A stretch of DNA of 64,000 nt, from NCBI GenBank assembly GCA_021413845.1, contig JAIOPP010000094.1:1-64000 (forward strand), in the 5' to 3' direction. Shown here in pieces: positions 39,946-41,202 of the stretch. Under the pieces are notes generated by a model. It was not told the origin of the DNA, made no database searches, and was given only the letters and a program-made list of their open reading frames with translations. Made by a program: the position numbers and the translations under genes. How positions within the stretch are numbered: the first letter of the stretch is position 1; each line of letters starts with the position of its first letter. The stretch comes from Planctomycetia bacterium (GTDB taxonomy: Bacteria > Planctomycetota > Planctomycetia > Pirellulales > PNKZ01).

Positions 39946-40241
39946 CGACCGAACTCCCCCCGACGCCGTGCGGACGTCGAATGTGATACCGGTTGAATAC
40001 CACGCGCCCCCCGATCGGCACGCCGAGAAAACCGGATAGGTGATCTATTCCGAAGGTATCGGTCGCACTAGTCCGAGAACTTGAACCGCTTCCCCTCCCT
40101 CGCCAAGAGGAGGCGATACGATATAATTCCCAGCGACGGGCTCCGGGCGCTCGGGTGCCGGCGATGCCTGCGCAACAGCGCGATAGACGATGCCCGTCTC
40201 CGACGGCAACCACGAACTAAGGACTGCGAAGCACGAACTCC
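39946..40241. other. Divergent intergenic region upstream of prfB
   Basis: 296 bp. It holds a TATAAT at 40122-40127, about 115 bases before the prfB start, and a small CCTCC/GGAGG hairpin just before it. No gene seen. Confidence 0.4.
40122..40127 (+). promoter_or_regulatory. Candidate -10 element of prfB
   Basis: A perfect TATAAT with TACGA just upstream; no clear -35 element at the right distance. Would give a leader of about 108 bases. Confidence 0.35.
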
Positions 40242-41202
40242 ATGGATAACTCTCTCGTTGATCGTGCCGAAACGATTCGTCGCCGCGTGATTCAGCTCCG
40301 AGACTCTCTTTGACTACGACTCCAAATGGGCTCGCGTCGCGGAGATCGAGAGCCGAATGTCGCAGCCCGATTTTTGGAACGTGCAGGAACGCGCTCAAGC
40401 GACCGTCGGCGAATTGAAGGGCCTGAGCGCGATCGTGAAGCCGATCAAGGACCTCGAACAGTCGTTGGCCGATCTGGATACGATGCTTGAGATGGCCGAA
40501 GAAGACCCGGAGTTCGCGGCGGAAGTACCGGCCGAGCTCGACCGGCTCGACCACGTACTCGCCGATCTTGAATTGAAGGGCCTGCTCAACGGCCCTTACG
40601 ACGCGCACAACGCGATCATGACGATCAACGCTCGCGACGGCGGAATCGACGCGAACGATTGGGCCGAGATGCTGCTGCGCATGTACATCCAGTGGGCGAA
40701 AAAGCAGGAGTTCGACGTCGAAATCATCGACCGCGCCGATAACGAACAAGCCGGCATCTCCAACGCCACGATCGCCGTGCGCGGACCGATGGCCTACGGA
40801 TATCTTCGCGGCGAAAGCGGCATGCATCGCTTGGTGCGCATCAGCCCCTTCAATTCGGAAGGGAAACGGATGACCAGTTTCGCGGCCGTGGATGTTTCGC
40901 CGGAAGTGCCTGACGACGCCGAGATCGAAATCAAAGACGACGACGTGCGGATCGATAAGTTCTGCTCGAGCGGTGCCGGCGGACAGCATGTGAATAAGAC
41001 CGCCAGCGCCGTCCGAATCACGCATTTCCCGAGCGGCATCTCTCAGATTCGCAACTACTTTCAACATCCCGACCAACGGGTCAAAGATTCGCGCACGGGC
41101 TACTCGGCGTCGCACTTTCAAAGCGTGCTCGACGGGGACATTCAGGGCTTTCTCGACGCCGTGTTGCAATGGCGCGCCGGCAAGGAAGTGGTGCAAGAAT
41201 GA
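40242..41202 (+). CDS. prfB: Peptide chain release factor 2 (RF2), +1 frameshifted, internally shortened
   Basis: RF2 terminates translation at UGA and UAA. The gene starts in frame at ATG 40242 (MDNSLVDRAE...). After 23 codons it meets CTT TGA C (40308-40314), the classical RF2 recoding site; slipping +1 there gives LDYDSKWARVAEIESRMSQPD and then an open frame to 41202, total about 319 residues. The stop-recognition motif SPF is at 201-203 and the catalytic GGQ at 246-248 (SSGAGGQHVN). Oddly, right after ITHFPSGI (residue 266) the sequence jumps to SQIRNYFQHPDQRVKDSRTG. E. coli RF2 has about 50 more residues here, including the CQNDRSQHKN segment and a long helix. The gene overlaps the next one by four bases (ATGA). 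Confidence 0.9.
40308..40314 (+). promoter_or_regulatory. Programmed +1 frameshift site of prfB
   Basis: CTTTGAC: leucine codon CTT followed by an in-frame TGA and C, the conserved autoregulatory slip site of RF2 genes. High RF2 terminates at the TGA; low RF2 allows slippage to GAC. The AGGGGG Shine-Dalgarno-like stimulator found upstream of the E. coli site is absent (CTCCGAGACTCT precedes it). Confidence 0.93.

Follow-up and report, generated by a model that had tools for sequence, protein, structure and literature searches.

The only prfB gene of this draft planctomycete genome lacks 150 nt at one point, and with them 50 residues of RF2. As judged from the assembled sequence, the gap is probably a local dropout of the assembly. 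The window (the whole stretch of 64,000 nt that was analysed) is part of contig C94 (165 kb) of a draft genome of 7.08 Mb in 167 contigs, and the closest named relative of this genome is a Pirellula sp. MAG. An earlier note on this DNA had described an RF2 frame with about 50 residues missing near position 41040, in frame and between normal flanks, with the recoding site, the SPF motif and GGQ kept. The description proves exact: alignment with the congener G003 and with 74 RF2s places the absence of 50 codons between 41040 and 41041, and all three motifs are found in the translated frame. The gene is laid out as follows.

40242..40313, plus strand: prfB leader in the zero frame, from ATG to the in-frame TGA; 23 codons, with CTT TGA C at about 40308-40314
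40312..41040, plus strand: prfB +1 frame, residues 1-243; domains 1, 2/4 and the first half of domain 3, with SPF and GGQ
41040..41041, plus strand: deletion junction; 150 nt (50 codons) absent here and present in the relatives aligned
41041..41202, plus strand: 3' part of prfB, from SQIRNYFQHPDQ onwards to TGA; 78-79% nt identity to the congener, normally conserved

The opening frame (40242-40310) reads MDNSLVDRAETIRRRVIQLRDSL and stops at the CTT TGA recoding site. A candidate programmed +1 frameshift site is recognisable here, CTT TGA C standing after 23 codons (about 25 in the definition of such sites), and leader and CTTTGAC site are the same in congeners and near relatives (L004-L007). 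From 40312, the +1 frame runs to a TGA at 41200-41202 and contains both the SPF tripeptide (RISPFNSEGKR) and the GGQ motif (SGAGGQHVNK). The gene would be the ordinary single prfB of a Pirellula-like planctomycete, expressed via the usual programmed +1 frameshift. The stop TGA of prfB and an ATG share nucleotides (ATGA, 41199-41202), and this ATG may open the next frame, which extends to 41738; in two of the three near relatives looked at, prfB ends with TAA or TAG and without the ATGA overlap. An open frame of 383 codons lies antisense to prfB on the minus strand (40045-41196) and is most likely a shadow of the prfB coding strand in high-GC DNA.

In the DNA alignment with G003 (L004/L085), about 800 nt match at 79% identity up to 41040, 150 nt of the congener then face 0 nt of the window, and identity is again 78-79% from 41041 to the gene end. 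The piece lost from RF2 comprises the strand VVQCQNERS, the last of domain 3, and the long helix alpha7 up to GFG, a block that contains invariant and nearly invariant residues. It is retained in full by three congeners (79-85% identical) and by all 74 other distinct RF2s in the alignment, with exactly 50 residues at the gap position in 73 of them and 58 in one. Given such constancy across the alignment, chance divergence does not explain the gap. Furthermore, a query of 61 residues spanning the 41040/41041 junction was run against 118 genomes of the order and gave matches in 111 of them. Residues 1-61 were matched whole only in the window's own genome, and none of the 110 other genomes with a hit gave a match over the full join. 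The match begins at residue 13-18, i.e., on the 3' side of the join, in nearly all other genomes, and reaches residue 7 in G038 and G066, where the split match of G038 shows the extra block. The segment is present in relatives and absent only in this assembly, which is one of the marks of an assembly artefact.

The remaining parts of the gene have diverged in an ordinary way. Compared with G003, prfB has 155 changes upstream of the junction (27/18/110 by codon position) and 35 downstream of it (7/5/23), and its divergence from the congeners is like their divergence from each other. The sole departure at a column conserved by more than 90% is a C at residue 218, which is common to the closest congeners. 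Neither compensating nor relaxed substitutions were found in the RF2 alignment and the codon-position counts against G003. Read from these data, the remaining prfB is under normal purifying selection, neither adapted nor decayed; the loss would therefore date from very recent times, if it exists in the organism at all. Additionally, TGA is the stop codon of 30 of 158 conserved, non-overlapping reciprocal-best genes of the window genome. RF1 reads UAA and UAG only, not UGA. A working RF2 is thus required in the cell, because UGA ends these genes and RF1 cannot read it.

The likeliest explanation is that the draft assembly lost 150 nt at one point of prfB, the loss having arisen, as we infer, in the assembly and not in the cell. 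The living cell would most likely make RF2 at its full length, about 370 residues, and the in-frame length of the gap would be a one-in-three accident. Comparable losses elsewhere in the assembly are another mark of an artefact. In a screen of 1.24 Mb of the window genome against 1.35 Mb of G003, about 42,000 residues were compared, and the prfB gap was the only clean in-frame loss of at least 15 aa with well-conserved flanks among 158 reciprocal-best pairs. A second clean deletion, of 122 nt and frame-breaking, was found by DNA and protein chain screens on contig C8 at about 176125-176128 (locus L219, offset about 16126); the nt identity of its flanks is 81% on either side. The deletion hits a conserved Gfo/Idh/MocA oxidoreductase, and the missing sequence coincides at least in part with the NAD-binding domain, which the G003 protein matches in full. 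The reverse comparison with the same screens gave no clean losses in G003, and small frameshifts, a sign of long-read error, were found in neither genome in the parts compared. A third candidate deletion, on contig C4 at about 20937, was set aside as ambiguous, since two diverged partial matches gave different sizes for it and no clear gene was present.

Losses of 150 and 122 nt in this genome and none in G003 suggest a defect of this assembly, although comparable losses are few (one, on C8) and either of the two might be a true mutation. Assembly dropouts would ignore the reading frame, and the out-of-frame loss of about 120 nt on C8 would fit this. That assembly can create false pseudogenes is well documented (PMC11017572). 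As in those cases, a conserved single-copy gene is broken in one assembly only, its surroundings are undecayed, and a further conserved gene is broken; whereas those cases feature frameshifts and internal stops, the loss in the window is clean, 150 nt long and in frame. Some observations stand against a dropout. There are only two convincing deletions and no small frameshifts in the sampled part, and the assembly is otherwise good. No direct repeats of note, such as would explain slippage or collapse, lie at the junction, where no more than about 1 nt is shared with the presumed ancestral ends. The contig is also long. Moreover, the C8 deletion could be a genuine pseudogene. An assembly deletion, one of three causes offered in the earlier note, is nevertheless the best supported, in view of the block kept by relatives and the second clean loss at C8, but falls short of proof.

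A real, recent deletion of the 150 nt, carried by some or all of the cells sampled and leaving a non-functional RF2, is a much less probable explanation, under which the sequence of a doomed or minority subpopulation may have been assembled. The clean sequence, normal flanks and high continuity are compatible with it, as is the lack of repeats that could confuse an assembler, and a very recent event also predicts the absence of decay. However, the use of UGA in 30 of 158 genes needs RF2, a mutant of this kind should not dominate a population, and there is no second copy to compensate. In our ranking, assembly dropout is the likeliest source of the prfB gap, a recent null allele comes next, and a functional minimal RF2 is the least likely of the three.

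Such a minimal RF2, in which the last strand of domain 3 and helix alpha7 are dispensable, was another of the causes offered earlier and is very improbable. In its favour, the reading frame is kept exactly across the deletion, the motifs GGQ and SPF, the recoding site and the stop are all intact, and the remaining gene is under purifying selection. Against it, the block is kept in every relative examined, at any distance, and includes invariant or nearly invariant residues; no compensating substitutions are seen. The pattern of relatives with the full helix at this locus and only this assembly without it had itself been named as evidence that would speak against a minimal factor. Structure prediction points in the same direction. 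AlphaFold was run on the window RF2 with a 38-row alignment, and the congener was modelled in the same way. Domains 1, 2 and 4 of the window RF2 are predicted well, but residues 216-242 around GGQ have pLDDT below 50 (about 40) and are without strands or helices, so that the fold of domain 3 is lost in the prediction. The congener model has strands at 212-218, 232-238 and 244-247 and a helix at 253-283, with pLDDT below 50 only at the GGQ loop (221-230) and at 285-287. The low confidence of the window RF2 could partly reflect the odd alignment gap, and the models are support rather than proof. Within the ribosome, the acceptor arm of the P-tRNA lies opposite helix alpha7 (PMC6742477). On the models and the alignment, the short RF2 is unlikely to work. 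UGA is also a common stop here, and a dispensable helix is not supported; it is very improbable that termination at UGA in a living planctomycete relies on an RF2 lacking the strand and helix alpha7, with neither needed for GGQ positioning.

The nearest known system is bacterial RF2 (prfB, TIGR00020), represented by E. coli 1GQE/6OST and T. thermophilus 4V5E. Like bacterial RF2, the window protein has domain 1, domain 2/4 with SPF, GGQ, an in-frame UGA recoding site and a C-terminal SQIRNYF segment, and it is up to 85% identical to the RF2 of congeners; unlike it, the protein is without the 50 residues of the last domain-3 strand and helix alpha7. It scores 364.8 bits against the TIGR00020 cut-off of 370, which also weighs against a minimal RF2, while the congener L004 scores 456.6; the shortfall arises because the block is missing. 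Its PCRF domain is matched in full (profile 3-194 of 194), but the RF-1 catalytic domain (PF00472, 116 positions) is matched only over 2-43, compared with 2-116 in the congener. A profile search of the genome with PF00472 and PF03462 found three genes only: prfA on contig C39 (364 codons, helix intact), a GGQ-domain protein on contig C26 and the window prfB. The search for a second prfB and for prfA proposed earlier thus yielded no second prfB and one intact prfA. A displaced or second copy of the missing block was likewise not found in the genome, the sole match being the RF1 helix. The C26 gene (L002, about 107519-107689; 176 codons) codes for a GPGGQH protein whose release-factor catalytic domain is short and which is probably a hydrolase of the rescue type.

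In a draft of 167 contigs the true prfB might have been left out, and shortened class-I factors such as RFH exist (PMC1586002); the gene at 40242-41202 could then be a paralogue, the third cause offered earlier, or a specialised release factor (a prfH/ArfB-like rescue factor). This deserves almost no credence: no other prfB-like gene occurs in the genome, and this one retains domain 1 as well as the recoding site, matches the prfB of congeners best and has a partly conserved neighbourhood. Like prfH (TIGR03072), it is a class-I release factor that is shortened and carries GGQ, but RFH misses domain 1 (PMC1586002), whereas the window gene has a full PCRF domain and its gap in domain 3.

Were RF2 to work without helix alpha7, ideas on what holds the GGQ loop in place would have to be given up. 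Most likely, however, the gap is a mistake of the draft assembly, and neither a real feature of RF2 nor a smaller version of the protein. It serves as a warning: where one draft genome has an essential gene with a clean gap that keeps the frame, the product can be mistaken for a minimal protein, and normal gene calling may raise no flag. Judging by the second broken gene, on C8, other shortened conserved genes of this assembly are suspect as well.
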